Assembly: GCA_017936885.1 (NCBI GenBank) | Contig: JAGBEO010000001.1 | Coordinates: 65,733-129,732 of the forward strand | Length of the DNA: 64,000 nt | From: Lachnospiraceae bacterium | GTDB lineage: Bacteria; Bacillota; Clostridia; Lachnospirales; Lachnospiraceae | Direction of reading: 5' to 3' | Shown: in pieces, positions 4,757 through 54,044 of the stretch | Layout of the letters: every line of letters starts with the position of its first letter | Numbering within the stretch: position 1 is the stretch's first letter | Made by a program: the position numbers and the translations under genes | Notes under the pieces: model-generated | The model's input: only the letters and a program-made list of their open reading frames with translations | The model's database searches: none | Told to the model about the DNA's origin: nothing

Positions 4757-4803
4757 AGTTTACCTATTCCTTCTCTACTCATTCATTTCTCCCGGCTCCT
4801 TTC

Positions 4804-4922
4804 GCATCAGCAGACTCAGAACACTTCGTGTTCTGAGTTCGCGTTGCTCGTCATAAGCCTTGCAATATATGCCTCCATGCAAGCATGATGTATATTTGCA
4901 ATCCTTCTGACTCTGCTGATGC
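4804..4922. repeat. Nested palindromic element, copy 1
   Basis: Outer arms 4804-4821 and 4905-4922 pair at 17 of 18 positions. Inside are a perfect 11-bp hairpin (4814-4824 with 4828-4838, loop TTC) and an arm pair with TTGCAA at both ends (about 4860-4900). On the minus strand it keeps the order TCAGAAGG, ATGCTTGCAT, CATATAT, then GCGAA, which it shares with the element after gltD (21450-21565). It sits in the transcribed leader of the ABC exporter, between the attenuator terminator and the first gene. It is probably an intergenic repeat family; its function is unknown. Confidence 0.6.
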
Positions 4923-4926
4923 GCGC

Positions 4927-4973
4927 AAAAAAAAGACTGCGGCAACGTACCTTACGGTCTCATTACCACAGCC
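4927..4973 (-). terminator. Leader terminator (attenuator) of the ABC exporter operon
   Basis: On the minus strand, the arms at 4973-4963 and 4945-4935 form an 11-bp stem that includes G-U pairs, with a GTAA-closed inner loop. It is followed directly by eight T residues (4934-4927). It lies after the leader peptide stop and before the exporter genes, where it would stop read-through unless an alternative fold forms. A short GACTG segment upstream (about 5003) could pair with the CAGTC at the end of the terminator stem; that antiterminator is a guess. Confidence 0.75.
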
Positions 4974-5020
4974 TTTAAAGCCTGACACATATGCTGACTG
5001 AATCAGTCTCGCGTCTCTAT

Positions 5021-5110
5021 CTAATTCAATCTTTTATCTGCGGAGGTAATTTCACGTAACGTGCTAATGTTTGATTTTCTGTTGTTTCTTTTTAATTTAA
5101 TGATAAACAT
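5021..5110 (-). CDS. 29-residue leader peptide upstream of ABC exporter
   Basis: A short ORF with an excellent ribosome binding site (AAAGGAGG, six bases before the ATG) encodes a basic, Lys/Arg/Asn-rich peptide beginning MFIIKLKRNNRKSN and ending DKRLN. It has its own promoter at 5221-5249 and is followed 48 bp later by an intrinsic terminator. In Bacillus subtilis the BmrB leader peptide controls bmrCD, a heterodimeric multidrug exporter, by ribosome-mediated attenuation in response to translation inhibitors. The same arrangement here suggests the same logic. The peptide itself has no domain I recognise. Confidence 0.72.
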   Translation of the reverse strand: MFIIKLKRNNRKSNISTLREITSADKRLN

Positions 5111-5220
5111 TATTTTACCTCCTTTCCTGATAGGCTCAGATGTCCGATCTTCTAAGCACCGGGAAACATCTAAACGATTTACAGTTTCCATTTTATAATA
5201 TCTTCAAATCACATGCTGCT

Positions 5221-5249
5221 ATCTTAATACAGTATGCAGAATCTGTCAA
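5221..5249 (-). promoter_or_regulatory. Promoter of the leader peptide and ABC exporter operon
   Basis: TTGACA (5249-5244), a 17-bp spacer and TAAGAT (5226-5221), reading leftwards. It starts a roughly 105-nt untranslated leader before the leader peptide, in which GGAAAC and GTTTCC can pair. Confidence 0.7.
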
Positions 5250-5288
5250 TCATCTTTTTTATTTAACAGCCCACATTTATTCAACAAC

Positions 5289-5999
5289 CTACTCGCCTAA
5301 ATATGCTTTCTTCACGGCCTCATTGTTCATCAGTTCCTTCGCATCACCCGATAAGGAAATCGTGCCCGTTTCCAGTACATAGGCTCTGTCCGCAATAGAC
5401 AAGGCCTTCTTCGCATTCTGCTCCACCAAAAGCACTGTGGTGCCGGACTGGCTTACCCGCTTAATAATATCGAAGATCTCATTGACAAAGATCGGCGATA
5501 ATCCCATAGAAGGCTCATCCATCACGATAATACTCGGCTGGCTCATCAGCGCCCGTCCCATGGCAAGCATCTGCTGCTCGCCGCCGCTTAAGGTTCCTGC
5601 CATCTGTGTCTTACGTTCTTCCAGTCTGGGGAATCTCTCATATACCATATGCAGATTTTCCCGGATTTCATCCTTATCTTTTCGGGTATAAGCTCCCATC
5701 AGCAGATTATCATAGACCGACAACTGGGCAAACACTCGTCTTCCCTCCGGCACATGTGCCATACCCATAGGCACAATCTTATATCCCGGTGTCTTCGTGA
5801 TGTCCTTACCCTCAAAAACAATGCTGCCGCTGGTGGGCTTAATCAGCCCCGTAATGGTATGCAGTGTGGTAGTCTTACCCGCACCGTTGGCACCGATCAA
5901 TGCAATGACCTCACCCTGATTTACCTCGAAACTAATCCCCTTAATAGCTTCTATCACACCATAATGAACATGGAGATCTTTCACTTCTAACATTGCCAT
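5289..5999 (-). CDS. livF: Branched-chain amino acid ABC transporter ATP-binding protein LivF
   Basis: A 236-residue cytoplasmic ATPase with Walker A GANGAGKTT (residues 36-44), signature LSGGEQQMLAMGRA and Walker B IIVMDEPSMGL. The MDEPSMGLSP stretch is characteristic of the LivF subgroup. It pairs with LivG to power the LivHM permease. It is the last gene of livJHMGF and follows livG by 20 bp. No strong terminator is visible after its stop, but a new promoter begins within 75 bp. Confidence 0.93.
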   Translation of the reverse strand: MAMLEVKDLHVHYGVIEAIKGISFEVNQGEVIALIGANGAGKTTTLHTITGLIKPTSGSIVFEGKDITKTPGYKIVPMGMAHVPEGRRVFAQLSVYDNLLMGAYTRKDKDEIRENLHMVYERFPRLEERKTQMAGTLSGGEQQMLAMGRALMSQPSIIVMDEPSMGLSPIFVNEIFDIIKRVSQSGTTVLLVEQNAKKALSIADRAYVLETGTISLSGDAKELMNNEAVKKAYLGE

Positions 6000-6019
6000 A
6001 TAATTACCATGCCTTTCTC

Positions 6020-6778
6020 CTATTCGCCTAAGTACGCCGTAATTACTTCCGGATTGTTTAACACTTCCTGTGTTTCACCCTGCGCCAGCACCTCACCGAA
6101 ATTCAGCACCGTCAGTTTTTCACAGATACCGGATACCAGCTTCATATCATGCTCAATCAAAAGAATCGTCATATCAAAATGATCCCGCACAAACTGAATC
6201 GTATCCATCAGTTCCTTCGTCTCATTGGGATTCATGCCCGCTGCCGGCTCATCTAAGAGAAGAAGCTTAGGAGCCGTTGCCATGGCCCTGGCAATCTCTA
6301 ACTTTCTCTGCTGTCCGTATGGCAGATTCTCTGCCTTATAATCGGCATATTCCTCTAGCCCGAACACTTTCAAAAGCTCCATCGCTCTCTCATTCATTTC
6401 TTTCTCCACTTTGAAATAGCGGGGCAGTCTTAGAATCCCCTCCAAAGTAGAATAGGGATAATGGTTATGTAAACCAACCTTTACATTATCCAACACCGGC
6501 ATATCCCCAAAAAGGCGTATATTCTGAAACGTTCTGGCGATGCCTGCTTTGCAGATATCAATCGTCCGCTTTCCTGTCACATTCACGCCATCTAAAATAA
6601 TAGAACCCTCGTCCGGCTGATACACACCTGTCAGCAGGTTAAAGATTGTTGTTTTACCTGCGCCGTTCGGGCCGATCAGTCCGTATAACTGCCCTTTTTC
6701 TATTGTAATGTTAAATGCATTAACCGCTCTCAATCCGCCGAAGGAGATTCCCAAATTCTTAACCTCTAATAATGCCAT
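6020..6778 (-). CDS. livG: Branched-chain amino acid ABC transporter ATP-binding protein LivG
   Basis: A 252-residue ATPase with Walker A GPNGAGKTT (36-44), signature LPYGQQRKLEIARA and Walker B LLLLDEPAAGMN, followed by the ETKELMDTI helix. The LPYGQQR signature and the AGMNPNE segment are typical of LivG. It starts three bases after the livM stop, and the GAAGGAGG ribosome site lies in the end of livM, so translation is probably coupled. Confidence 0.94.
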   Translation of the reverse strand: MALLEVKNLGISFGGLRAVNAFNITIEKGQLYGLIGPNGAGKTTIFNLLTGVYQPDEGSIILDGVNVTGKRTIDICKAGIARTFQNIRLFGDMPVLDNVKVGLHNHYPYSTLEGILRLPRYFKVEKEMNERAMELLKVFGLEEYADYKAENLPYGQQRKLEIARAMATAPKLLLLDEPAAGMNPNETKELMDTIQFVRDHFDMTILLIEHDMKLVSGICEKLTVLNFGEVLAQGETQEVLNNPEVITAYLGE

Positions 6779-6781
6779 GTC

Positions 6782-7843
6782 CTATGCCTCCTTCTTAAGT
6801 TTCTTGTTGCCGATAAAGCGCTGTTTCAGGCGTTTTCTAAAGAAAATCGCGTTAGGGCTCCAGTTGAAAATCATCATCGCAATCAGCACGATCGCATAAA
6901 TTAACATACGGTAATCACTTAAGCCCCTGAGTACCTCGGGAAGCAGCGTCAATAAAACCGCAGCGATAATGGAACCGCGGATATTGCCGATTCCGCCAAG
7001 CACCACAAATACTAAGATCAGAATAGACATGTTGTATCCGAAATTCTTAGGCAGCGCATTCAGCGTAGATAAGTTATGCGCATAGAGTACGCCTGCCACA
7101 CCCGCTAAGGAAGCGGAAACCGTAAAAGCGATCAATTTATATTTCGTTACATTAATACCCACAGATTCAGCGGCGATACGGTTATCACGGATGGACATAA
7201 CCGCACGTCCCGTTCTGGAATTGATAAAGTTCAGTACAATAAAGAGTGTCACCAGAATCAAAACCACACCGATCGTAAAATTAGAATCATTGGGTGTACC
7301 CGTAACACCCTGTGCACCTTTAATCAGCATTAACCCGTCCTCTTCCATATTCAAAGACAGGGCATCTTTCATGGAAAAATGCAATCCGCTGCCGTCCACG
7401 CCAAGATACAGCGCGTTGATAATATTCTTGATAATCTCACCAAATGCCAGCGTCACGATCGCTAAGTAGTCGCCTCTAAGACGCAGTACCGGAATACCTA
7501 CCAGAAATCCCACCAGTGCTGCAGCAGCCGCGCCGATTATAAGCGCCAGGAAAAACCGTAATCCGCCGGGCATTGTCTCCTTAAATGCAAGGGAAAATAC
7601 CGCGCTGGCAAACGCGCCCACGCACATAAAGCCCGCATGTCCCAGACTCAGTTCGCCTAAAATACCGACCGTAAGATTCAGCGCCACCGCCACGATCACA
7701 TATGTACAGAACGGAACCAAAAGCCCCTGAATCAGACTGGATACATGTCCGGTAGATACCAGAATCTGTACTATAATATATGCCAAGACTACCATTCCAT
7801 AGGTAATCAGATTATTCTTCGTTGTTTTACTTACTTTCTTCAT
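6782..7843 (-). CDS. livM: Branched-chain amino acid ABC transporter permease LivM
   Basis: A 353-residue integral membrane permease with about ten hydrophobic segments. It contains the LRLRGDYLAIVTLAFGEI block that defines LivM/LivH-type permeases and ends in a basic cytoplasmic tail. The ATG at 7843 is chosen because GGAGG lies five bases upstream; longer in-frame starts lack a ribosome site. A 67-bp gap to livH carries an ATGCTTGCAT decamer that is also present in the nested palindromic repeats elsewhere in the window. Confidence 0.92.
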   Translation of the reverse strand: MKKVSKTTKNNLITYGMVVLAYIIVQILVSTGHVSSLIQGLLVPFCTYVIVAVALNLTVGILGELSLGHAGFMCVGAFASAVFSLAFKETMPGGLRFFLALIIGAAAAALVGFLVGIPVLRLRGDYLAIVTLAFGEIIKNIINALYLGVDGSGLHFSMKDALSLNMEEDGLMLIKGAQGVTGTPNDSNFTIGVVLILVTLFIVLNFINSRTGRAVMSIRDNRIAAESVGINVTKYKLIAFTVSASLAGVAGVLYAHNLSTLNALPKNFGYNMSILILVFVVLGGIGNIRGSIIAAVLLTLLPEVLRGLSDYRMLIYAIVLIAMMIFNWSPNAIFFRKRLKQRFIGNKKLKKEA

Positions 7844-7910
7844 GCCATCCTCCATAATGCCATATTCCGGCATCCATTTTGCAACCATCCTCACTATGCA
7901 AGCATCTGTT

Positions 7911-8792
7911 TTAAACCTTCTCCTGAATCTTTTTACCCAGAAGTCCGGTAGGCTTCACCAAAAGCACGATAATCAGGATACTGAATACAATCGCATCCGC
8001 TAACTGGGAAGAAATATAAGCCTTACTTAAATTCTCGATGACACCCAATAAGATACCACCGATAAAAGCACCGGGAATCGACCCGATACCGCCAAATACT
8101 GCCGCCACAAAAGCCTTGATGCCCGGCATGGAACCGGTATAAGGAGTTAAGGACGGATAGGCAGAACACAGAAGCACACCGGCCACTGCCGCCAGAGAAG
8201 AACCGATTGCAAAGGTAACGGCAATCGTACCGTTTACATTAATACCCATAAGCTGGGCCGCACCTTTATCCTCAGACACCGCTGTCATGGCGCGTCCGAT
8301 CTTGGTCTTTTTTACAAATAAGGAAAGACCTACCATAATAATGATACTGACAATCACGGTTACAATCGTCACACTCTTAATGACTAACTGTCCGTCAAAC
8401 AATTCCAGATTCGGCAAAGTTACCACATTGGTAAACGCCTTGGTATCCGAACCGAATACAAGAAGCGCAACATTCTGCAGGAAATAACTGACACCGATCG
8501 CCGTAATCAAAACAGCCAGAGGAGATGCCCCGCGAAGCGGTCTGTATGCCACCCGTTCAATTGTCACACCGAGCACGGTACACACTGCCATAGAGATTAT
8601 GATAGAAGCAAGCGGATTCAGTCCCATCCCGCTGACGGTAACAAAGACCACATATCCTCCGATCATAATGACATCACCATGTGCAAAATTCAGCATCTTG
8701 GCAATACCGTACACCATCGTATATCCAAGCGCTATCAGCGCATAGACACTTCCTAAACTTATTCCGTTAATTAAATGGGCTACAAAACTCAT
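7911..8792 (-). CDS. livH: Branched-chain amino acid ABC transporter permease LivH
   Basis: A 293-residue membrane permease beginning MSFVAHLINGISLGSVYAL, with the GYTMVYGIAKMLNFAHGD segment typical of LivH and the C-terminal FGGIGSIPGAFIGG motif. The start at 8792 follows GGAGG by seven bases; upstream in-frame codons are excluded because they run through an intergenic hairpin cluster. It is the second gene of the operon, separated from livJ by 203 bp of structured RNA. Confidence 0.93.
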   Translation of the reverse strand: MSFVAHLINGISLGSVYALIALGYTMVYGIAKMLNFAHGDVIMIGGYVVFVTVSGMGLNPLASIIISMAVCTVLGVTIERVAYRPLRGASPLAVLITAIGVSYFLQNVALLVFGSDTKAFTNVVTLPNLELFDGQLVIKSVTIVTVIVSIIIMVGLSLFVKKTKIGRAMTAVSEDKGAAQLMGINVNGTIAVTFAIGSSLAAVAGVLLCSAYPSLTPYTGSMPGIKAFVAAVFGGIGSIPGAFIGGILLGVIENLSKAYISSQLADAIVFSILIIVLLVKPTGLLGKKIQEKV

Positions 8793-8995: not shown

Positions 8996-10249
8996 TTACA
9001 TTGCTGTATAAACACCATCTTTAATCACTACAGCCTTAGGAGCCTTAGTAGGTTCACCGGAAGCATCCCATGTGATACCCTCGCCTGTAAGACCGTCTAC
9101 TGTGATCTCTGTCATAGCTGCTGTCAATGCAGCACAGATTTCTTCATTAGACATATCTGCCGTGATGCCTGCCTTCTCAGCCGCTGCCTTGATGGTATAC
9201 ACTGTGTCGTAACCGTCTGCTGCGAACTGGTTAGGGGTCTCACCGTATTTCTCTTTGTATGTGGTAACAAATTGAACCGTTAAGTCATCTGTTGCATCTG
9301 CTGCGAAAGGTGTTAATAACATAACGCCCTCAGCTAAAGATGTATCAAAGTTCTCAACATTTAAGATACCGTCTAATCCGTCACATCCGAAGAAGTCAAC
9401 ATCAAATCCCATATCTGCTGCCTGTGTTAAGATCAGGGAAGCCTCTGTATAGTAGATCGGAAGGAATACAAGCTCAGCGCCTGCGTCCTTAGCCTGCTGT
9501 AACTGTACAGAGAAGTCTGTCTTGTTATCAGCCGTAAAAGCACCTGCTGATACGATTTCGATAGACTGGTTGGCTGCTTCTGCTGCAAACTTCTCATAGA
9601 TACCGGAAGAATAAACGTCAGAACTGTCATAGATAACCGCTACTTTAGAAGCAAGACCGTTCTCACCGATATACTGTGCGGAAGCAGAACCCTGGTTAGG
9701 GTCTGAGAAACAGATACGGAACGCATTATCATTAGCGACACACTCTACAGCGGAACCGGATGGAGTAATCTGGAACATCTGATCCTCTGCTGTCTTCGCG
9801 GATACCGCGATAGAACATGCACTTGTTACGCAGCCGTCAAGTACCTGTGCGCCCCAATCCTTTAATGCGTTGTAAGCATTCACGGATTTCTCGGCATCAA
9901 GCTCGTCATCCTGGAAATTCAACTCTACCGTCATACCGTTGATACCGCCAGCTTCGTTGATCTCGTCAACTGCAATCTGGGAACCGTTCATTGCTGCGAT
10001 ACCATATACTGCCGCACCGCCTGTCAGCGGTCCGATACCGCCGATCTTAAAAGTAGCACCGTTACTCTCTGTAGATTCAGTGGTCTCTGCTGACTCTTCT
10101 GTTGCCGCTGTGTCCTCTGTTGCTGATGCATCTTCTGCTGTCTCAGCTGATGCGTCATTTGTTCCTGTACTTGCGGAAGAACCGCAGCCTGTTAACATAG
10201 CTGCCGTCATAGCGCCTGCAAGCACAAGGCTTAACATTTTTTTCTTCAT
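8996..10249 (-). CDS. livJ: Branched-chain amino acid ABC transporter substrate-binding lipoprotein LivJ
   Basis: A 417-residue extracellular binding protein. The N-terminus MKKKMLSLVLAG followed by LTGC is a lipoprotein signal with the modified cysteine near residue 23. It is followed by a Thr/Glu/Ser-rich linker and a type I periplasmic binding fold (FKIGGIGPLTGGAAVYG and INEAGGINGM). The ATG at 10249 has AAGGAGGAG upstream. It is the first gene of the operon, with its own promoter at 10338-10366. The ligand is inferred as Leu, Ile or Val, but related amides cannot be excluded. Confidence 0.93.
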   Translation of the reverse strand: MKKKMLSLVLAGAMTAAMLTGCGSSASTGTNDASAETAEDASATEDTAATEESAETTESTESNGATFKIGGIGPLTGGAAVYGIAAMNGSQIAVDEINEAGGINGMTVELNFQDDELDAEKSVNAYNALKDWGAQVLDGCVTSACSIAVSAKTAEDQMFQITPSGSAVECVANDNAFRICFSDPNQGSASAQYIGENGLASKVAVIYDSSDVYSSGIYEKFAAEAANQSIEIVSAGAFTADNKTDFSVQLQQAKDAGAELVFLPIYYTEASLILTQAADMGFDVDFFGCDGLDGILNVENFDTSLAEGVMLLTPFAADATDDLTVQFVTTYKEKYGETPNQFAADGYDTVYTIKAAAEKAGITADMSNEEICAALTAAMTEITVDGLTGEGITWDASGEPTKAPKAVVIKDGVYTAM

Positions 10250-21092: not shown

Positions 21093-21398
21093 CTAATAAG
21101 GTCTTTCTGTTTTCTTTTTAACTTCCTGATACTCTTCTATGGTTATGCCCAGCCCCTCACAAGCCTTCTGTAAGTCAAAACCAAGATTTTTCATCAGTGA
21201 ATTTATATTTTCTACTAATTTTTTTGCCTGCCCTGCATCATATCCGTCTTCAAACAGTGTTTTCTTTACATATTCCTCATTATATTCATATATTGACATA
21301 GCAATAACCTCTGCTTTCTGCTCCATCAGGAAATCTCTCAAAATATCTTTTTCAATACATGTATCTACGGCTGTTTCTACTGCCTTCTGTCTGGACAT
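21093..21398 (-). pseudogene. 3' remnant of an Rpn-family nuclease gene
   Basis: The 101 codons match the C-terminal third of the intact Rpn-type protein at 55888-56853: AVDTC, KDILRDFL, EQKAEVI, MSIYEYNEEYVKKTL and the final GITIEEYQ-like segment align with few changes. The catalytic PD-(D/E)XK region is absent, and nothing upstream continues the frame before the gltD-side repeat element. This is a decayed, 5'-truncated paralog. Confidence 0.75.
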
Positions 21399-31182: not shown

Positions 31183-32133
31183 TTAGCCAAGTAAGGACAA
31201 TGCCAACTGATTAGACTGATTAGCCTGTGATAACATGGATGTACCTGCCTGCTGTAAAATGTTGTTATTAGAGTATTTAACCATCTCTGTAGCGATATCT
31301 GTATCACGGATAGCAGATTCAGCGGCTGTAGTATTCTCTACAACATTATCCAGATTGTTGATGGTATGCTCTAATCTGTTCTGTACAGCACCAAGGTCAG
31401 ATCTCTGCTGCGATACCAAAGAGATAGCTCCCTTTACAAATGCATTCAATGCATTGAAATCCTTTGCTGTTGCTACAGTACTATCTTCTCCTGATTCCAG
31501 ACCTGTCATTTTTTCAATGACCTCTTCAGCCGTAGCTGTTTCCATTGTACTTTCTGTAGTTGCTGGTACTCCCTTGTCATTCAAAGCATAATACTTGATA
31601 TCCGTATACAGATCATCATCAATTCCTGCTGCGAGACCGTCCATACTCATATCCTTAATATCAATATCGATATGCTGACCCGGTTCTGCACCTACCTGAA
31701 GACCTACTCCCGTGAAAGTTCCGTCTAACAATGATTTTTCATTGAAAGTAGTTGTGCTCTGTACACGATCTACTTCTTCCATTAACTGCTTAACCTCGGA
31801 CTGAATGTAGGCGCGATCTGTTGTTGTAAGTGTTCCGTTCTCGCCTTTAACAGCCAGCTCATTCATTCTCTGTAACATATCCTGTACTTCATTCAATGCA
31901 CCTTCTGCTGTCTGTACACAGGAAATACCATCCTGTGCATTGGCAGAAGCCTGTGTAAGACCTCTTACCTGACGTCTCATTTTCTCACTGATAGAAAGAC
32001 CTGCTGCATCGTCTGCTGCACGATTGATCTTATAACCAGATGATAATTTCTCTGTGGACTTAGCCTGTGCACTTGTTGTAATGCCTAACATTCTGTTAGA
32101 ATTCATTGCTGTGATGTTGTGTTGTACTACCAT
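31183..32133 (-). CDS. hag: Flagellin
   Basis: A 316-residue flagellin. The N-terminal D0/D1 region (MVVQHNITAMNSNRMLGI, SSGYKINRAADDAAGLSISE) and the C-terminal coil (DIATEMVKYSNNNILQQ ending ALSLLG) are intact, with a short variable middle. The start at 32133 follows AAGGAGGA. It lies downstream of csrA and carries CsrA-binding features at its ribosome site. I see no sigma-28 promoter directly upstream, so it probably depends on read-through from csrA, which in turn borders an invertible segment carrying such a promoter. Confidence 0.95.
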   Translation of the reverse strand: MVVQHNITAMNSNRMLGITTSAQAKSTEKLSSGYKINRAADDAAGLSISEKMRRQVRGLTQASANAQDGISCVQTAEGALNEVQDMLQRMNELAVKGENGTLTTTDRAYIQSEVKQLMEEVDRVQSTTTFNEKSLLDGTFTGVGLQVGAEPGQHIDIDIKDMSMDGLAAGIDDDLYTDIKYYALNDKGVPATTESTMETATAEEVIEKMTGLESGEDSTVATAKDFNALNAFVKGAISLVSQQRSDLGAVQNRLEHTINNLDNVVENTTAAESAIRDTDIATEMVKYSNNNILQQAGTSMLSQANQSNQLALSLLG

Positions 32134-32251: not shown

Positions 32252-32533
32252 CTAGGATTGCTCCGGGTTATTAGCGTGCCTGTCATCTTTTTTCCTGTGA
32301 CGCTTCTTACGGTATTTCTCCGGCAGATCCGGCACCGCATAATAATGCGGAAGGTTTGCCCTTTCCTCTTCACTTTTGGCTTGATTCTCGATTACTTTAC
32401 TTCTGGCTACATTTACATTCTTAGGCGCATCCACCATGACCCGTAGATGATTTTTACTGCCGCCCAGAAAGATGATCTTGATATCTTCGCCGATCTGCAA
32501 ATATTCTTCCGTGCTCACTGTCAGTCTTAACAT
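32252..32533 (-). CDS. csrA: Carbon storage regulator CsrA with long C-terminal tail
   Basis: The first 55 residues follow the CsrA fold: MLRLTVSTEEYLQIGEDIKI, FLGGSKNHLRVMVDAP and VNVARSKV with the RNA-binding arginine. CsrA represses flagellin translation until FliW removes it. The protein is 93 residues, longer than the usual 60-75, because of a basic tail (YRKKRHRKKDDRH). GGGAGG precedes the ATG. fliW is not in the window. The gene sits between the invertible segment and hag and is likely co-transcribed with hag. Confidence 0.9.
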   Translation of the reverse strand: MLRLTVSTEEYLQIGEDIKIIFLGGSKNHLRVMVDAPKNVNVARSKVIENQAKSEEERANLPHYYAVPDLPEKYRKKRHRKKDDRHANNPEQS

Positions 32534-32664
32534 AACTTACAACCTCCCTGTCCATCCCTTAAACTGTTCTCCGTAACCTGTCTGTCGTCTTTCACCGGAC
32601 TTTCATTTCTGACTTCATCTCTGCTGCCCGATCAAATCTCCGACACATAAGGGCTGCCGCCATG

Positions 32665-32687
32665 CAACTTTTTGTATAATAATGTTG
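32665..32687 (+). repeat. Left inverted recombination site
   Basis: CAACTTTTTGTATAATAATG plus TTG; inverted relative to 33474-33496 with 22 of 23 matches. It lies 131 bp from the csrA start. Confidence 0.85.
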
Positions 32688-32750
32688 CATACTACAAGTT
32701 GTTGTACTAATGTAGTTTTATTTCAGATCACTCAGAAGGAGGAAATTCAT

Positions 32751-33332
32751 ATGAGCGTAACTTATCCAATTAAAAACAAAAAATCCCTGGCACGTTTCAA
32801 GGACTACTATGTATCCGTCAAACCCAATCCCCGCAATTACACAATGATTGTCATGGGACTCAACACTGCTTTCCGTATCGGAGATTTATTGCGTCTGCAA
32901 TGGAAAGACGTTTATGATGTATCCGCCGGACGGCTGCGCGCCCACATCTGTATCAGGGAGCAGAAAACGGGCAAAGAACGTATGGTTCCCATCAATGCTG
33001 CCGAAAAACAGGCATTGACCAACTATCACATAATCTGCAGGCACAACCTCCCCGATGACTATCTGTTCCCCAGTCTCCGCAATAAAGCGCTGCCGATCTC
33101 CCGCTATCAGGCATACCGTATCGTCAAAGAAGCGGCAGTTGAAAGTGGGCTGGCAGAACACATCAGTTGCCACTCTCTTCGCAAGACCTTCGGGTATCAC
33201 GCCTGGAAGCAGGGCACGCCGCCTGCTATGCTGATGGATTTGTATAATCATTCTTCTTACCGGGTAACGAAACGATATTTGGGAATTGAACAGGATGAAA
33301 GAGATGACGTGTATATGCACATTGATTTATAA
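32751..33332 (+). CDS. Small FimB/RecV-like tyrosine recombinase
   Basis: A 193-residue integrase-family protein made only of the catalytic domain. Active-site residues are Arg42 (TAFRIGDLL), Lys72 (EQKTGKERMVP), His141 and Arg144 (HSLRKTF), His167 (LYNHSS) and Tyr176 (KRYLGI). Stand-alone recombinases of this size (FimB, FimE, RecV) invert promoters of surface structures. The start follows AGAAGGAGG. A weak promoter (TTGCAT, 17 bp, TAATGT) lies between it and the left site. It sits inside the segment it presumably inverts. Confidence 0.88.
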   Translation: MSVTYPIKNKKSLARFKDYYVSVKPNPRNYTMIVMGLNTAFRIGDLLRLQWKDVYDVSAGRLRAHICIREQKTGKERMVPINAAEKQALTNYHIICRHNLPDDYLFPSLRNKALPISRYQAYRIVKEAAVESGLAEHISCHSLRKTFGYHAWKQGTPPAMLMDLYNHSSYRVTKRYLGIEQDERDDVYMHIDL

Positions 33333-33424
33333 TCAATGCACTACTTTACTTTTTATTTTAATTCTATAAAACATTTCTTTATAAATGGTTTAACGATTTT
33401 TCTATTTTTTTTGTAAAAAGAGGT

Positions 33425-33450
33425 TAACTATTTGAATGTATTTCCGATAT
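33425..33450 (+). promoter_or_regulatory. Sigma-28-like promoter inside the invertible segment
   Basis: TAAC (33425-33428), 14 bp, TCCGATAT (33443-33450) against the flagellar sigma-D/28 consensus TAAA-N14-16-GCCGATAT: one mismatch in each element. It points rightwards, away from csrA and hag, with the right recombination site starting 24 bp after it. After inversion it would face csrA-hag. Confidence 0.65.
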
Positions 33451-33466
33451 ATAGTATGTAACTAAT

Positions 33467-33510
33467 AAAGACACAACATTATTATACAAAATGTTGTGTC
33501 TTCTTTTTTA
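33467..33510 (+). terminator. Terminator overlapping the right recombination site
   Basis: AAAGACACAACATT pairs with AATGTTGTGTCTT (33467-33480 with 33490-33502), then CTTTTTT. Its outer GACA/TGTC arms come one from inside and one from outside the recombination site, so the full stem exists only in the present orientation. Confidence 0.8.
33474..33496 (-). repeat. Right inverted recombination site
   Basis: Its reverse complement matches 32665-32687 at 22 of 23 bases. It forms the core of the terminator hairpin at 33467-33510. Confidence 0.85.
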
Positions 33511-33671: not shown

Positions 33672-33743
33672 ATATAGAAGTAAGTCAAATACTTACCGTG
33701 ACATATCAATCGAATCATATGTCACATAACCAAACTGAATAAC

Positions 33744-33846
33744 TTGCTAGGGGAGCGTTAGCTGAGACTGAGCAAGTCAGGTGTACCGCATCTGCCGCTC
33801 TAACCCTCATTACTTGAACCGGATAATACCGGCGTAAGGAAGCGAT
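33744..33846 (+). ncRNA. TPP (THI-box) riboswitch
   Basis: The conserved elements appear in order: AGGGGAGC, GCTGAGA (33761-33767), a variable P3, ACCCT (33803-33807), TTGAACCGGATAATACCGGCG (split as TTGAACCGG and ATAATACCGGCG) and GGAAGC. It senses thiamine pyrophosphate and lies 110 bp before thiT. Confidence 0.95.
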
Positions 33847-33919
33847 TGTATATAAGAAACAGATCCCGTGTGAATGCTTGATCTGACGAAATATGAATTC
33901 TTATTGCAATATTATCTCC

Positions 33920-33955
33920 CCTCCTTGCTATTCTACAGACAAAGGAGGATTTTTT
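33920..33955 (+). promoter_or_regulatory. Expression platform of the TPP riboswitch
   Basis: CCTCCTT (33920-33926) can pair with AAGGAGG (33942-33948), which is the thiT ribosome site. The stem is followed by ATTTTTT, then the ATG. The same hairpin could therefore act as a terminator and as a translation block when TPP is bound. Confidence 0.7.
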
Positions 33956-34654
33956 ATGTACAATGTAGTTGTCAACGACTGGGGCGAAACAACTTATGTC
34001 CCTACCACATCCGGCAAGATCATTCTTGTCCTCATTCTCGCCGCCCTGCTGGCAGGCGCAGTCATTTTTGCCAGAAAATATGCCCAAAAACAAATTCAAG
34101 GCAATACAGCCCTAAAAGGCAGTAAACTGACTGTAAAACAGCTTGCCTTCTGTGCGATGGCAATCGCCCTCGGTACGGTGCTTTCTAATCTTAAGCTGTT
34201 CCACTTTCCCACAGGCGGTTCCATTACATTACTGTCCATGCTGATTATCTGTCTTCCGGGCTATTTCTTCGGTTTAGGCGCAGGTCTTTTATCCGGAGTG
34301 GCATACGGCATCTTACAGCTTCTGATCGATCCTTATGTATTATTCCCGATGCAGCTTGTGGTTGATTATTTTCTGGCATTCGGCGCCCTGGGATTATCCG
34401 GTCTTTTCTGCAATGCCAAATACGGACTGCTGAAAGGCTACATTGCCGCCATATTGGGACGTTATGTATTTGCAGTCCTTTCGGGCTGGATCTTCTTCGG
34501 CTCCTACGCATGGGAGGGCTGGGGTGCATTGCCGTACTCGCTGGTATACAATGCCATCTACATCTTTGCGGAAGCAATCCTGACCGTCATTATTCTCCTG
34601 ATTCCCGCCGTCAATAAGAGTCTGGCGCGGGTAAAAGCAATGGCGATCTCATAA
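33956..34654 (+). CDS. thiT: Energy-coupled thiamine transporter ThiT
   Basis: A 232-residue membrane S-component of an ECF transporter. After a 45-residue N-terminal extension with one hydrophobic segment, the ThiT core shows LTVKQLAFCAMAIALGTVL, a GGSITLLSM loop and DPYVLFPMQLVVDY, the thiamine-site region. It would work with a shared ECF module encoded elsewhere. AAAGGAGG precedes the ATG. Regulation by the TPP riboswitch confirms the substrate. Confidence 0.93.
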   Translation: MYNVVVNDWGETTYVPTTSGKIILVLILAALLAGAVIFARKYAQKQIQGNTALKGSKLTVKQLAFCAMAIALGTVLSNLKLFHFPTGGSITLLSMLIICLPGYFFGLGAGLLSGVAYGILQLLIDPYVLFPMQLVVDYFLAFGALGLSGLFCNAKYGLLKGYIAAILGRYVFAVLSGWIFFGSYAWEGWGALPYSLVYNAIYIFAEAILTVIILLIPAVNKSLARVKAMAIS

Positions 34655-35524: not shown

Positions 35525-36622
35525 TTATCTTGCTAAAAGTTCATCTAATGTTGCTTTTTCAAAATTATCATGTATATGCTGTTGTAAATTTTTTTCATAA
35601 CTTTTGATTGCTAGTTCTTTTTTTTTGTCAATTTCTTGTGTTTTTGCTATATAGTCTTTTTTTGCTAATTCGTTGTAGTTTTTAAGTGCTTCTTTTTTGT
35701 TAGCATCTATTTGTTGCTTATCTTTTTCAAACTGAATTTTAGCTTGCTCATAATATCCTTTTGCGTCAAACTTTTTATCTATATCTTGAACACTTCTTTC
35801 AAACTCTGCTTTTTTCTGTTCTTCATATTCTTCAATCATGTTGTTAAATTGTTCAAGTCTGCTATCTTTTGCTCTGTCACCTTTTTTATATTCCTTTGGG
35901 TTCATTTGTTGATACTTTTCCCAAAATTCATTAACGTATTTATCTTTATTATCAGGGTCTTTTTTAATCAAATCGTTATAGTATTCAATTTGTTCTTTTT
36001 TCCAAGCATTAAATTTAACACGTTCTGGAGTTATTATTGTACCTTGTATACCACGCTCATTTATTTTCTTTTGCATATATGGGTGTAAATTATTTAATAA
36101 TTCTTTATCTATAATTCCTTTTGCATTGAATTTTTCTGTGTAAGTTGTTTTCACACGTCTTTGCACTTCACGTTGTTTTTTTTCATCAAATACTTTTACG
36201 TCTTTACTTTTAGTAAATTCTTTACATTGTTCAATAGGCATAAATATATAATGCATGTGTGGACTTGTTTCATCAAAATGAACAAATGCTCCGATACAAT
36301 TTTTAAAAATTCTATCATGTGTCAAAATATCATATACAGCTTTAAAAAAAATTTCTGGACTTACAGAACAGTCCTTTGGATATGTGATACATAAATCACA
36401 AAATGCAACGTCTGTTTTTTCACTTCGTATATATGCAGTTTTCTTTTTTGCCTCTAATAATTCAATCATATCACCTTCACATAAATTATAATTCAAATGC
36501 GTTTTAGTAGGATTGATTTTACTAAAAGAAGTATCTTTTATTATTTCATCATCTCTTTTATGTTCTTCATAATGTAATTTTAAATTCGTAACTTTGTTAA
36601 ATCCATATTTTGCAAGTTTCAT
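35525..36622 (-). CDS. MobV-family relaxase (Pre/Mob)
   Basis: A 365-residue plasmid-mobilization relaxase. The metal-binding motif VHFDETSPHMHY (His115, Asp117, Glu118, His122, His124) and the upstream HLNYNL (about residue 42) identify the MobV family, whose members nick oriT and pilot the strand into recipients with help from another element's transfer machinery. The C-terminal third is a long Lys/Glu-rich coiled coil. GGGAGGTGC precedes the ATG, and a candidate oriT lies 70 bp upstream. Codon use is AT-rich, unlike the chromosome. Confidence 0.92.
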   Translation of the reverse strand: MKLAKYGFNKVTNLKLHYEEHKRDDEIIKDTSFSKINPTKTHLNYNLCEGDMIELLEAKKKTAYIRSEKTDVAFCDLCITYPKDCSVSPEIFFKAVYDILTHDRIFKNCIGAFVHFDETSPHMHYIFMPIEQCKEFTKSKDVKVFDEKKQREVQRRVKTTYTEKFNAKGIIDKELLNNLHPYMQKKINERGIQGTIITPERVKFNAWKKEQIEYYNDLIKKDPDNKDKYVNEFWEKYQQMNPKEYKKGDRAKDSRLEQFNNMIEEYEEQKKAEFERSVQDIDKKFDAKGYYEQAKIQFEKDKQQIDANKKEALKNYNELAKKDYIAKTQEIDKKKELAIKSYEKNLQQHIHDNFEKATLDELLAR

Positions 36623-36691
36623 AGCATTGCACCTCCCTTATTTTCTTCTAAAGAAAGTATGCAATTTCTCGATTTGTCAAAGTTGCAAAAC

Positions 36692-36710
36692 GGTATAGAC
36701 CCGCTATACC
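36692..36710 (-). other. Candidate MobV origin of transfer
   Basis: GGTATAG and CTATACC (36692-36698, 36704-36710) form a hairpin around ACCCG. On the minus strand the sequence GGTATAGCGGGTCTATACC followed by GTTTTGCAAC resembles oriT hairpins of MobV plasmids, and it lies just upstream of the relaxase gene as usual. Direct repeats and GC-rich hairpins continue to 36830. The nick position is not assigned. Confidence 0.65.
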
Positions 36711-36873
36711 ATTGTGTAAAAAATTCCGCTACGCTACATTTTTCACAAAATGGGCGGGCAAGGTTGCACCTTGACTGCTCTCAGTCACATTCTCAATTTT
36801 TTAAACCGCAAATATAAAAAATTGATTTTTTCTTACCCCCTATTTTTTGTGGCTGCCTGTTATCCCGCGCCCC

Positions 36874-36906
36874 AAAAAATATCCCCCTAAAATCATAGGG
36901 GGATAT
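36874..36906 (-). terminator. Terminator of the DUF6809-like gene
   Basis: ATATCCCCCTA pairs with TAGGGGGATAT (36879-36906), followed on the minus strand by TTTTTT. Confidence 0.85.
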
Positions 36907-36938
36907 ATCCTTTAGCGAGAAAAATCAATTTTTATAAG

Positions 36939-37211
36939 TTATAATATTTTTATTTCTTTTAACAGTTGTATGCAATCAAAAATTCCTTGTCGGTATGATA
37001 ACATGCTACAACATGCACTAGAAGCGTTATATGCTGACACCATTCTGTCTATCACTAATTTTTGTTCATTATCTAAATTCAATTCATCAAAGCTGACAAC
37101 CGTTTCTTGGATTTCATCTTCCAATTTTAGAAATTCATCATCTTTAAGCAGAATACTATCTAATCTTTCATTTGTGAACATTTCTACTAATTCATCTAAC
37201 AGCCTTTCCAT
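36939..37211 (-). CDS. DUF6809-like small helical protein, element cargo
   Basis: A 90-residue protein with an acidic N-terminal half and a C-terminal YRQGIFDCIQLLKEI. The ending resembles DUF6809-type proteins frequently found on integrative elements; function unknown. No cysteine motif or membrane segment. GGGGGTTAGAT precedes the ATG. It lies between the recombinase side and oriT and has its own terminator. Confidence 0.65.
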   Translation of the reverse strand: MERLLDELVEMFTNERLDSILLKDDEFLKLEDEIQETVVSFDELNLDNEQKLVIDRMVSAYNASSACCSMLSYRQGIFDCIQLLKEIKIL

Positions 37212-37321
37212 ATCTAACCCCCATTTGCTTTTGTTGCTCGCATGATAACTCTCTTTGCAGGATTTGAAAAGACCTTTTTTATTTTTCTTCCTTAGAGTAT
37301 ACGCCCCTTGCTAGGGGCAAC

Positions 37322-37354
37322 AAAAAAGGACGAGTATTCATCTCGTCTTTTTTT
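37322..37354. terminator. Bidirectional terminator
   Basis: GACGAG pairs with CTCGTC, extended by A and T runs on both sides (AAAAAAG and CTTTTTTT). Confidence 0.8.
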
Positions 37355-37447
37355 GTAGGGTAGAAATTTTATATTTTAAAATTCTTGAAAATTGATTTTC
37401 AAAAAAATTCTTACAATTTGATTTTCATCTATCATATTGTTATTAAC

Positions 37448-38160
37448 TTAATTGAATATATAAAAAAAGCCACCAAATTTTGGTGGGTAGTTACTGGCAC
37501 TAACTACAGTAGCAATATGACAGTTCTAAACTGTTTTGAAAAAGTTTTTTTAATAAATTTAAAGTTCTAGTGTAGTGCCAGTACATTAGAACTTTTTTTA
37601 TTAGCTGTACGATAAGAATAAACATCAGCTAGGAAACAAAATGTTAAATGTCTACGGTGGACAGCCTCAAAAAAATAGCCGAACCAAGTGAGAGCGACTT
37701 GATTATCTTAGGATAATAAAACGGCTACGGGTGGAAAACGTGTTTTTTACATGAAAAGTGTAAAAAAGTCAGCATACATGAAAATCAAGGGCACGTTGCG
37801 AATAGTAATAAATGATCGACTTTCGGTGGTATCGCCAATTACTGTTGTATGAAGAAAATGAAACCTCTCCGACGTGTACGGGGTTAAATACACGCAAGGC
37901 GAATGAAAATGTTTCATTACTGATTTGACTACTCCCAATCGTAAAAAATATAATTTTTTTTATATTTTGGTTGGGAGTGGTCAAGACTTTCTCTCCTTTT
38001 TTGACTCGGCGAATGGTGTCGGTTTGACTGGTGTGCAAACAATAAGTCTTGGTTCATTTGTACTGATTTAAAAAATCCATGCGGTAAATCGTTGAACTTG
38101 TGAAACGATTTCGCGGAAGGGGGCATGGGGGAAACGCAAGTTGCCCCCCCAATTCTTTCT
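37448..38160. other. Non-coding structured region of the mobile element
   Basis: Within the 1055-bp gap 37212-38266 no ORF is convincing, but structure is dense. CCACCAAA/TTTGGTGG near 37470; TACTGGCACTA near 37491 pairs with TAGTGCCAGTA near 37574, or the latter lies in the loop of a terminator AAGTTCTA/TAGAACTT with T7 (about 37560-37600); a three-way fold at 37673-37724 (TAGCCG/CGGCTA outside, CAAGT/ACTTG and ATTATC/GATAAT inside) followed by T7 on the minus strand; an inverted repeat with about 27-nt arms at 37926-37984; and AAATCGTT/AACGATTT plus a GGGGG/CCCCC stem at 38087-38150. Confidence 0.55.
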
Positions 38161-38266
38161 TTTGCTTCTTTTCTTTCTTAGGAAATTGATTTTTGCGTAA
38201 AAAAAAGTGTCGGCTAAATTTTAAAGAAGCAGTAAAATAGAGGGTTTGCGGACACAAAGTTGTCAT

Positions 38267-39802
38267 TTACTGCTTCCATTCAATTTTTACAGAACCGTCT
38301 TTATAGACAAATATTTTTTCTACAAGAACTCTTAAAATCATTTGCTTCATATCTGTATCTAATATATCATAATCTACTATCAAATTTCCTTCTTTATCAT
38401 ATATACTTTTTAATGAAGGATTTTTATGTAATCCAAGCCTTAATTCAATTATATCTTGTGCATTATCAGTTTTCAGTTTTAACTGCAAATCTTTGATTTC
38501 AACTGTCAGCTTATCAATTTTGATTTTTACAACATCTGAAATATTGTCACTAAATGTTGCCAGTTCAATTAAATTATCCAGTTGTTTTTGTAATTCAGCA
38601 ATTTTCTTCTTAGTCTTATTTGTCCTTCTTTGCTTCTGTTCAACAGTTTCATTTAAATCCTGCAAATATCTTTTTACTTCATCTGATACATTTTTTTGTA
38701 CAGTTTCAAATTTAGTTCCTGCAAATGTCACATGACAAATCTTTTTTTGATTTCTGCCCGTACAAGTGAGAGTTGGGAATTTCTGCATTTTTATAGCCAT
38801 TCCACACTCAGCACATTTCAGCAAGCCACTTAATTCCTTTAAATTGTTGTTTGGGGAATTATCCGAAGCAATCGCTTTGTTCTGTTCCATTCTGTCTTGT
38901 ACCATGATAAAAGTTCTGCTGTCAATCACACCTTTTACATTAGTAATATATACCATGACACCGCTTAAATCATCTGCACGCAATGACCTGCCATTTTTAC
39001 CAACAATTCCTGCAGAAAACTCACCATTCCATTTTTCAATTTCATTTGCAAATTCTATTTGTTTCTTTTGATAATACTGTGCAAGCACTTCATCTGCAAC
39101 CGCATATATAGGATTAGATAACATTCTGCTAAGTGTTGTTCTTGAAAATCCTTTTGTAGACTCATGACCAGTAAAGCCTTTATCATTCAACAAATTTTGC
39201 AGTTGTCCGATTGATACATTCGGTTTTTCTGCATACGTTTTAAATATCTTTTTTACTATTTCAATTTCTTCATCTACTGGAATAAGCGTTGTTCTTCCTT
39301 CAACTTTACCATTTCTAAATCCAAATGGTGCTTTACCACTTGCCCACCTGCCATCTCTTACACGATAATCATAGTTATCTTTAATTCTTGTTTGTATGTT
39401 CTCACGTTCCATCTGTGCGAATACTGCAAGTATTCCCATCATAGCACGCCCCATGCTGTTTGAAGTGTCAAAATCTTCATTCTTACTTACGAACATACAG
39501 TCATATCTTTTCATAAATTCGTATAACTTATAAAAATCAGCTATATTTCTACTGATACGGTCTAATTTATAAACAACAACCTTTTTTATAATTCCTGCTT
39601 CAATATCTTTCATAAGTCTTTGCAGGTCTGGTCTTTCTGTATTCTTACCCGAATATCCTTTGTCTTTGTAAATTCTTACATTACCTGAACACTTTGATTT
39701 GCACTCATCAATCTGTGTTTCAATAGATACACTATCACGCTTATCTACTGATTGTCTTGCATAGACAGCTTCAAATCTTTCGCCTTTCGTATTGTTCGCC
39801 AT
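38267..39802 (-). CDS. Large serine recombinase (TnpX/TndX-like)
   Basis: A 511-residue integrase of the large serine recombinase family. The resolvase-type catalytic domain has the nucleophile Ser18 (VYARQSVDKR), followed by the YKLDRISRN arginine motif. A recombinase domain, a zinc ribbon (LLKCAECG near residue 329 and a later CTGRNQKKIC) and a coiled coil (about 395-440) follow. It should excise and insert the 4.9-kb element. GGAGG precedes the ATG; a good promoter lies right inside the element end. It is the gene nearest the right terminus. Confidence 0.93.
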   Translation of the reverse strand: MANNTKGERFEAVYARQSVDKRDSVSIETQIDECKSKCSGNVRIYKDKGYSGKNTERPDLQRLMKDIEAGIIKKVVVYKLDRISRNIADFYKLYEFMKRYDCMFVSKNEDFDTSNSMGRAMMGILAVFAQMERENIQTRIKDNYDYRVRDGRWASGKAPFGFRNGKVEGRTTLIPVDEEIEIVKKIFKTYAEKPNVSIGQLQNLLNDKGFTGHESTKGFSRTTLSRMLSNPIYAVADEVLAQYYQKKQIEFANEIEKWNGEFSAGIVGKNGRSLRADDLSGVMVYITNVKGVIDSRTFIMVQDRMEQNKAIASDNSPNNNLKELSGLLKCAECGMAIKMQKFPTLTCTGRNQKKICHVTFAGTKFETVQKNVSDEVKRYLQDLNETVEQKQRRTNKTKKKIAELQKQLDNLIELATFSDNISDVVKIKIDKLTVEIKDLQLKLKTDNAQDIIELRLGLHKNPSLKSIYDKEGNLIVDYDILDTDMKQMILRVLVEKIFVYKDGSVKIEWKQ

Positions 39803-39842
39803 AAAAAAACCTCCAACTTGATTTATTTACAAGTCAGAGATT

Positions 39843-39871
39843 ATTATACACTACATGGGCTATGCACACAA
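39843..39871 (-). promoter_or_regulatory. Promoter of the serine recombinase
   Basis: TTGTGT (39871-39866), 17-bp spacer, TATAAT (39848-39843). It starts only 10 bp inside the right terminal repeat, so recombinase bound to its own site could repress it. Confidence 0.7.
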
Positions 39872-39880
39872 ACACAAATC

Positions 39881-39895
39881 TTTGACTTGTGTTTC
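39881..39895 (-). repeat. Right terminal inverted repeat of the element
   Basis: On the minus strand GAAACACAAGTCAAA; 14 of 15 match the left repeat; six bases from the junction. Confidence 0.8.
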
Positions 39896-39901
39896 AAGTT
39901 T

Positions 39902-40585
39902 ATCCTGAAACGGATGAATCCGCTCAAACTTCACATGGAAGTCCAGAATATCCTCAAAAGTCTTTTCTTCCTTGGTATTATACTCTGTCAGCAGTACTTT
40001 CATCTTATCGGCAACTTCTTCCGGAAGTGCGGGGTCCATGCCGCCAACTTCATTTGGCATTTTTTTATAATCACCCACGGCGAACCAGTCCTTTCTGGAG
40101 TCACTGGTACCATTCTTCTGGATCAGGTGCAGCTCCTTGATGAACTTCTCGGTCAATGCCGCTTTTGCATGATCAATAATTATGTCGATGCAGCGAAAGT
40201 GGTTTACCGTTTCAATCACATCATCTACATTGAGAACTTCATTTTCTACACCAATGGTGTTGGTCTCAAAAATGTATCTGGTCTGATCGTGAGTAAGACG
40301 GCTGCCCTCAATATGATTAGAGTTATATGTCAAATCAATTTGTGTTTTATGGTAAATGCCGCCGGTGTATTTGCTTGCTTTCTGTTCCTGCAGAATGTCC
40401 AGCAATGTTATCGGCTGTTCTTTCTTTTTATTGGAACGTTCCGGCTTCTCTGCATTTTCAGGTATATTCCAAGTCTTGCCGGCAAGAAACGCTCCGACCA
40501 CACGCCCCTGGGCGCAATAATTCCTAACGCTGCGCTCCGACACATTCCATTTTTTCGCTATTTCAGTAACTGAAAGATATCGCAT
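39902..40585 (-). pseudogene. 5' part of fic interrupted by a mobile element
   Basis: 228 codons encode an N-terminal DNA-binding helix-turn-helix (SVTEIAKKWNVSERSVRNY), an inhibitory-helix-like TYNSNHIEGSRLT (the S/T-x-x-x-E/N-G-N type) and the first half of the Fic motif, FERIHPFQD. The frame then runs 14 codons into the element and stops at 39860. Rejoined with 34774-34980 it gives a 296-residue Fic protein with complete HPFQDGNGRVGR, an AMP-transferase family enzyme that modifies Tyr, Ser or Thr of target proteins. GGAGG precedes the ATG. As it stands the product lacks the active site. Confidence 0.9.
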
Positions 40586-53672: not shown

Positions 53673-54044
53673 ATGGAAATCATTATCAGCAATAATGCCA
53701 ACAAACCAATCTACGAACAAATTACGTCCCAGATCAAGGCAATGATCATGAGCGGCGAGTTGCAGCCCGGAGACGCTATTCCCTCCATGCGTGCCCTGGC
53801 AAAATCCATTCATGTAAGCGTCATTACCGTTCAGAAAGCCTACGAGGATTTGCAAAGAGACGGCTTTATTGAAACAACCGTCGGCAGAGGCAGCTTTGTG
53901 TCCGCGCTGAACAAAGACTTCTATCAGGAGGAGCAGCAGCGCATCATAGAGGAACATTTGCAGGCTGCCGCAGAAATCGGACGAATGAATCATATATCTT
54001 TAGAAAAAATGACGGAACTGCTGACTTTATTCTATCAGCCATAG
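53673..54044 (+). CDS. GntR-family (YtrA-type) transcriptional regulator
   Basis: A 123-residue repressor with a GntR winged helix (PIYEQITSQIKAMIMSGELQ, IPSMRALAKSIHVSVITVQKAYEDL, GRGSFV) and only a short helical tail, which defines the YtrA subgroup. It heads a three-gene operon with an ABC ATPase and permease and should repress it. The start at 53673 lacks a near ribosome site. An 11-codon ORF (53660-53695) with the good site GGAAAGGA overlaps the start in another frame, so coupled or re-initiated translation is likely. Confidence 0.88.
   Translation: MEIIISNNANKPIYEQITSQIKAMIMSGELQPGDAIPSMRALAKSIHVSVITVQKAYEDLQRDGFIETTVGRGSFVSALNKDFYQEEQQRIIEEHLQAAAEIGRMNHISLEKMTELLTLFYQP

Follow-up and report, generated by a model that had tools for sequence, protein, structure and literature searches.

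A putative invertible sigma-28 promoter, usually enclosed with its own tyrosine recombinase, recurs beside csrA-flagellin operons in Lachnospiraceae

The stretch of DNA analysed here, 64,000 nucleotides of a Lachnospiraceae bacterium contig (the window), contains a flagellin gene, hag, preceded by a csrA paralogue, and upstream of this pair a segment (32665-33496) in which a recombinase gene and a sigma-28-type promoter lie between inverted sites. To the right of the segment, just past the distal site, come a TPP riboswitch and then a thiamine-transporter gene of the Thia_YuaJ type (33739-34654), and there are no flagellar genes on that side. Further on, a Mob_Pre relaxase-like gene, a large serine recombinase and a Fic-domain gene (35525-40585) together look like an integrated mobile element. 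The features of the locus are the following:

31183..32133, minus strand: flagellin gene hag, 316 amino acids (Pfam Flagellin_N and Flagellin_C), with its ATG start at 32133
32252..32533, minus strand: csrA paralogue, 93 amino acids, first gene of the putative target operon (PF02599, 57.9 bits)
32534..32661, minus strand: leader from the proximal site to csrA, without a sigma-28-like site and presumably transcribed in the ON state
32662..32690, no strand: putative csrA-proximal recombination site, an imperfect palindrome with the repeat arm at 32665-32687
32751..33332, plus strand: tyrosine recombinase gene, 193 amino acids (PF00589, 98.4 bits)
33424..33450, plus strand: sigma-28-type promoter, called by sequence, oriented here away from csrA-hag
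33468..33509, plus strand: terminator-like hairpin and T-run, called by folding, containing the distal site
33471..33499, no strand: putative distal recombination site, with the repeat arm at 33474-33496 and the same core as the proximal site

The two arms are 23 nt long, complementary at 22 of 23 positions (96%) and spaced by 786 nt, and their repeat score of 20 compares with a maximum of 14 in 586 controls in which the right flank was shuffled, preserving base composition only. Within each site, two arms flank a core of about 7 bp and form an imperfect palindrome, and the distal site yields a hairpin with TTTTTT after it; both features had been overlooked in the original prediction. The promoter reads TAAC-N14-TCCGATAT and points rightward, away from csrA-hag; it fits the flagellar sigma-28 consensus. 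It scores 19.5 bits, the highest of eight matches of at least 12 bits in the window, with a matrix trained on the same module family, so the score is not independent. Other sigma-28-like matches are found at 54002 (minus strand, 17.3 bits), with no flagellar gene recognised downstream, and at 21268 (minus strand, 15.4 bits). Inversion of the segment would bring the end of the -10 element to about 32711, which is 178 bp from the csrA start. The original prediction of a 193-residue recombinase gene enclosed by near-identical inverted sites, with an outward-facing sigma-28-like promoter near the far end that inversion would place about 180 bp upstream of csrA, was therefore borne out at the level of coordinates.

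The enclosed gene product belongs to the tyrosine recombinase superfamily, as it passes the Phage_integrase model PF00589 well above the gathering score of 27.1 bits. Its relatives of solved structure, by profile, are XerA and XerD, and residues R42, K72, H141, R144, H167 and Y176, which we take to be the R-K-H-R-H-Y catalytic set of tyrosine recombinases, are invariant in all 21 aligned recombinase sequences. The protein stays below the NCBIfam equivalog cut-offs of PRK09871 (57.8 against 222 bits) and PRK09870 (38.7 against 221), presumably the FimE-type and FimB-type models respectively, and below that of XerD (58.8 against 329.6 bits). A scan of IMG/VR returned 74 relatives on viral-collection contigs (L143-L216), at identities of 45% or less.

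We found the same set of parts in many other genomes, and a second time in this one. Contig 4 carries another full module (L045:9915-10752) in the OFF orientation, with a recombinase 65% identical to that of the window, sites with a different core, a promoter, csrA and a 660-aa flagellin gene. At E < 1e-40 the recombinase was present in 20 of 36 other genomes of the genus and in 36 of 397 genomes from an even draw across the family, the window's own genome counted. A scan of named genomes retained the best 80 of at least 568 stretches encoding a relative; the titles of these 80 are mostly Lachnospiraceae MAGs, with some isolates, and in 69 of them csrA and the recombinase are divergent, in 2 csrA is on the opposite side, and 9 were not placeable by csrA. 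Among the pooled chromosomal loci, after removal of duplicates, matches below 120 bits and the 74 viral-contig loci, 101 of 128 distinct related recombinase loci are linked to csrA, and a later set of 29 loci, from which 5 duplicates were dropped, contributed 12 csrA-linked loci among the remaining 24. The survey took one genome per species, and the counts come from custom scripts at the thresholds stated. The orientation counts given below cover neither recombinase matches below 120 bits nor 25 loci without csrA or hag, nor two loci (L093, L097) in which hag is present, no csrA match was found downstream of the recombinase, and neither sites nor promoter were detected. Recombinase, sites, promoter and csrA-flagellin operon co-occur across Lachnospiraceae.

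The arrangement of these parts varies. In the main layout, that of the window, the recombinase gene lies between the sites and is transcribed away from csrA. A second layout has it between the sites and transcribed toward csrA (L282, L283, L285, L286, L330-L332; L286 has no scored site pair), and in a third (L100, L108, L127) a segment with only the promoter lies between csrA and a recombinase gene located outside it, as in fim. When the state was called by the direction of the recombinase gene, four loci of the second layout (L282, L283, L285, L286) seemed to be ON, although their promoter points away from csrA; this way of calling was dropped and all modules were recounted by promoter direction. 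The promoter faces away from csrA in the listed loci of all three layouts, so the constant feature is a promoter at the distal site and not the position of the recombinase. Some relatives depart further from the pattern. In L042:4919-5743, L043:4871-5618 and L284, related recombinases lie inside strong inverted repeats with neither csrA nor hag nearby and no promoter match within 400 bp; these could possibly be switches for other genes. L030:1498-2075 keeps sites and promoter, has its recombinase split over two frames and is perhaps locked OFF, and in L040/L119 the recombinase is shortened, no site pair was detected and no promoter exceeded the threshold.

The orientation of the promoter is strongly biased. 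In the 67 OFF modules with a site pair of score at least 12, a strict promoter motif was found 58 times between the recombinase and the distal site, facing outward and 14-29 nt from the site, against an expectation of 0.36 from shuffled sequence; in a looser scan, one of the 67 had the strict pattern facing csrA in the interval from the proximal site to that gene. Base composition alone was preserved in these shuffles and in those used for calling direction. A matrix trained on 66 promoters of this kind, applied with a threshold of 12 bits, put the direction as away from csrA in 94 of the 101 csrA-linked modules and toward it in 2; there was none above threshold in 5, and the best of 202 shuffled regions reached 10.6 bits. 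The 12 later csrA-linked loci, which were outside the training set, gave 10 away, 0 toward and 2 without a call. Pooled, 104 of 106 modules with a scored promoter are OFF and 2 are ON, and 7 have no scored promoter. Isolates are also among the OFF loci (L068 of strain 0.1xD8-71, L074 of strain 1xD42-87, L098, L131 of Lachnospiraceae bacterium A2, L134 of Petralouisia muris NM01), and so the OFF bias is not only an effect of MAGs; in every case an assembly represents the majority state only. Toward csrA, from the proximal site to the gene, none of 86 modules, the window included, has a sigma-28-like site that reaches 10 bits, in agreement with the earlier claim that csrA-hag has no other such promoter, and between the csrA start and hag a site of at least 12 bits occurs in 1 of 96 modules, at 12.7 bits, in L090, itself one of the two ON loci. 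As fixed alternatives are almost absent, it is apparently the invertible promoter that csrA-hag relies on for sigma-28 transcription; sites of the sigma-28 type alone were scored, and a sigma-A-type promoter may also serve the operon. The same genome encodes a FliA-family sigma factor (270.6 bits against a cut-off of 189.6).

Searching related genomes for the opposite orientation, which the original prediction had proposed as a check, led to two loci with the promoter facing csrA-hag: L090, in a goat-rectum MAG, with well-matched sites, and L125, in a Roseburia sp. MAG, with poorer ones (score 14). In chromosomal position the L125 locus (L294) corresponds to OFF loci from two further species (L298 and L296). 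Between L294 and L298, the genes read as purM-purN-purD (3044-6172 against 4871-7932) and csrA (9391-9691 against 9528-9828) align in the same direction, whereas the segment at 8747-9422 of L294 aligns reversed to 9501-8814 of L298. Against L296 the flanks all lie on the opposite strand and the segment on the same strand, which is the same relative reversal. In both comparisons the alignment of the reversed segment ends at or near the sites, and in L267, the locus within L296, the repeat search detected no site pair. By sequence, both orientations of the module exist, between species at an orthologous locus and in L090. For L090 itself an orthologous inversion was considered and dropped, as the comparison with a congener (L243) and with L087, L091 and L126 gave only the module and weak transporter-gene matches. 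The site cores also bear on inversion. In 88 modules with a site pair of score at least 14 there are 60 different 8-mer cores at the distal site, and in 76 of the 88 the proximal site of that module carries the distal core too, compared with a mean of 2.7 and a maximum of 8 when partners are shuffled, a count partly favoured by the way pairs were selected (best inverted repeat, score at least 14). A core shared by partners and variable between loci is compatible with strand exchange between partner sites. We gave no weight to the idea that differing cores insulate modules of the same genome from one another, because with 60 cores in 88 modules such differences are expected anyway.

The distal site may have a second role. 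Among the 83 OFF modules of the main layout, at least 5 T in the 8 nt that follow were found after the distal site in 81 and after the csrA-proximal site in 15. The median hairpin energy in these modules is -17.1 kcal/mol at the distal site, against -9.3 for the junction of the predicted ON transcript, and in 80 of the 83 the distal hairpin has the lower energy, with the two being equal in one further module. The shared arms are not where pairing ends at the distal site: across 87 modules, positions 13 and 14 from the core pair at 0.90 and 0.91 there, compared with 0.59 and 0.41 for the proximal site. The window's own distal hairpin (-15.5 kcal/mol, z -5.93) has a stem followed by CTTTTTT, and the proximal site (-9.2 kcal/mol, z -0.82) has an outer arm that pairs worse than the distal one, and no T-run. 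Folding was used because a simple terminator scan (loop of at most 8, 3 G-C pairs required) did not list the distal hairpin of the window. The distal site with its T-run looks like an intrinsic terminator, so that the distal hairpin would cap OFF transcripts, and the proximal site would be kept weak so that ON transcripts pass.

Taken together, the locus is very probably a self-contained phase-variation cassette in which the recombinase inverts the segment between the two sites and so switches the promoter of csrA-hag. OFF, as in the window, the sigma-28 promoter would fire away from csrA-hag and give a short transcript ending at the distal site, which would double as terminator; ON, it would drive csrA-hag from about 180 bp upstream, with the transcript reading through the proximal site, where the predicted fold is less stable and a T-run is absent. 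Every such csrA-flagellin operon would then have its own switch, overwhelmingly OFF in the sequenced genomes. This reading is supported by a site pair beyond chance, a conserved promoter, the opposite orientation at an orthologous locus, cores shared between partners, the near-absence of alternative sigma-28 promoters, the lack of conservation of the distal genes and the presence of a FliA-family gene, and it upholds the original prediction of a flagellar phase-variation module in the OFF state. It is weakened by the rarity of ON modules (2 of 106 with a scored promoter), by the poorer sites of L125 and by the undetected site pair of L267. The same rarity, together with damaged relatives such as L030 and L040/L119, would also fit a switch in the window that once worked and has since become locked OFF, with inversion lost or too rare to matter in this genome. 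We consider this unlikely, since the window's reading frame is intact with the presumed catalytic residues, the arms agree at 22 of 23 positions and the cores are identical, and intact parts also occur in many diverged relatives, which suggests upkeep.

The promoter could also work just as it is seen, serving a short sigma-28-dependent RNA, which promoter, hairpin and T-run would define, or a distal gene, with csrA-hag not being the target. It points that way in 104 of the 106 scored modules, but the genes beyond the distal site lack conservation (they fall into 49 clusters across 80 modules), the first distal ORF runs against the promoter in 46 of these modules and with it in 34, the promoter faces csrA in two loci, and the near-identical site pair would be left unexplained, all of which makes such a role very improbable. 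The thiamine-transporter type of distal neighbour seen in the window occurs in just two other modules of the 80 (L059, L076). That the recombinase comes from an integrated mobile element whose ends are the repeats, as its best PHROG match, an integrase family (180 bits), and the Mob_Pre gene and serine recombinase a few kb away could suggest, can practically be dismissed, as csrA accompanies 101 of 128 related recombinase loci, the repeats hold just recombinase and promoter, or in the third layout the promoter alone, and between species the segment turns up reversed at an unchanged position.

Common-core inverted sites and an internal promoter that, by its sequence, faces the target in one orientation only place the phase-variation cassette among the invertible-promoter switches that use a tyrosine recombinase. 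In E. coli, fim also works by promoter inversion through small tyrosine recombinases, FimB and FimE, and these lie outside the segment, as in the third layout; the main layout differs in having the recombinase inside, the target here is flagellin, and the window's recombinase shares 30% identity with FimB over 152 aa. The Hin recombinase is of the serine type, acts with hix sites and an enhancer, and is encoded within the invertible segment, as in our main layout. In Salmonella, the Hin segment likewise holds the promoter of a flagellin operon, and that operon also encodes a flagellin regulator, FljA (PMC9368917), in the place of which we find a CsrA paralogue of putative regulatory role. Unlike Hin, the enclosed gene here encodes a tyrosine and not a serine recombinase, csrA precedes the flagellin gene, there are several modules per genome and the distal site is terminator-like. 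The flg switch of Clostridioides difficile, a gut clostridium, is also an inversion by a tyrosine recombinase, RecV, that switches flagellar genes; its segment, situated within the 5' leader of flgB, has no functional promoter, and RecV also acts on several switches at other places in the genome (PMC7446863). Here a promoter-like site lies inside the segment, in place of a promoterless segment in a leader after a fixed promoter, and it is a sigma-28 promoter that would be inverted upstream of csrA-flagellin, by a recombinase encoded beside or inside the segment. For C. difficile cwpV, a terminator has been proposed at the inverted-repeat junction and about 5% of cultured cells are reported to express the protein, so that cwpV and the present module are alike in having a terminator, here putative, at an inverted repeat and in being mostly OFF; in cwpV the inverted segment does not contain the promoter, and what the terminator stops is expression of the gene itself (PMC2784873), while here the promoter would invert and the terminator-like structure would cap outward transcripts. 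In logic the module is nearest to Hin/fljBA; in enzyme class and host group it is nearest to the C. difficile switches. New in the module, judged from its sequence, are the sigma-28 promoter, the csrA-flagellin target, the recombinase that is usually inside and the terminator-like distal site. We found no published description of such a module in the literature searched, which was thin on subscription journals and preprints; the terms 'recombinase' and 'phase variation' do not occur in the main text of a paper on Eubacterium and Roseburia motility loci (PMC3720852), nor 'Lachnospir' in a recent review of phase variation (PMC11868660).

The genome has five genes matching Flagellin_N, one of them weakly and FlgL-like. 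About 160 bp upstream of the flagellin gene on contig 15 lies a sigma-28-type promoter that is fixed. Its flagellin compares with that of the window at 90% identity N-terminally, 61% centrally and 92% C-terminally; for the contig-4 flagellin, the central identity to that of the window is 37%. Since the sequences diverge in their middle part, the switch-linked genes encode alternative flagellins. The switch-linked CsrA passes PF02599 (gathering score 27 bits) and falls below the NCBIfam CsrA equivalog cut-offs (39.6 against 73 and 35.3 against 70.1 bits); by these scores it is a divergent paralogue, and a better-scoring csrA (89.2 bits) is located on contig 15. As CsrA is reported to inhibit flagellin expression in B. 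subtilis (PMC3720852), a role like that of FljA could be considered for the switch-linked CsrA. We tentatively hypothesise, by analogy and as a rather doubtful extension of the findings, that gut Lachnospiraceae may have a multi-locus flagellar antigen switching system of an origin independent of Hin/fljBA, in which each alternative flagellin operon would have its flip switch and a co-transcribed CsrA paralogue that silences the mRNA of the other flagellins, as FljA does in Salmonella, so that ON cells would display one alternative filament at a time and most cells would stay OFF, out of immune sight.

The host immune system has access to the flagellins of gut Lachnospiraceae. A recurrent switch that keeps flagellin operons silent in nearly all sequenced genomes, with several switches in some of them, would open to direct test how a major surface antigen is hidden or varied by commensals. 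The module would also be a second architecture, besides Hin/fljBA, that packs together a recombinase, a flagellar promoter, a flagellin and a possible flagellin regulator, with a terminator-like recombination site in the module that would insulate the OFF state.
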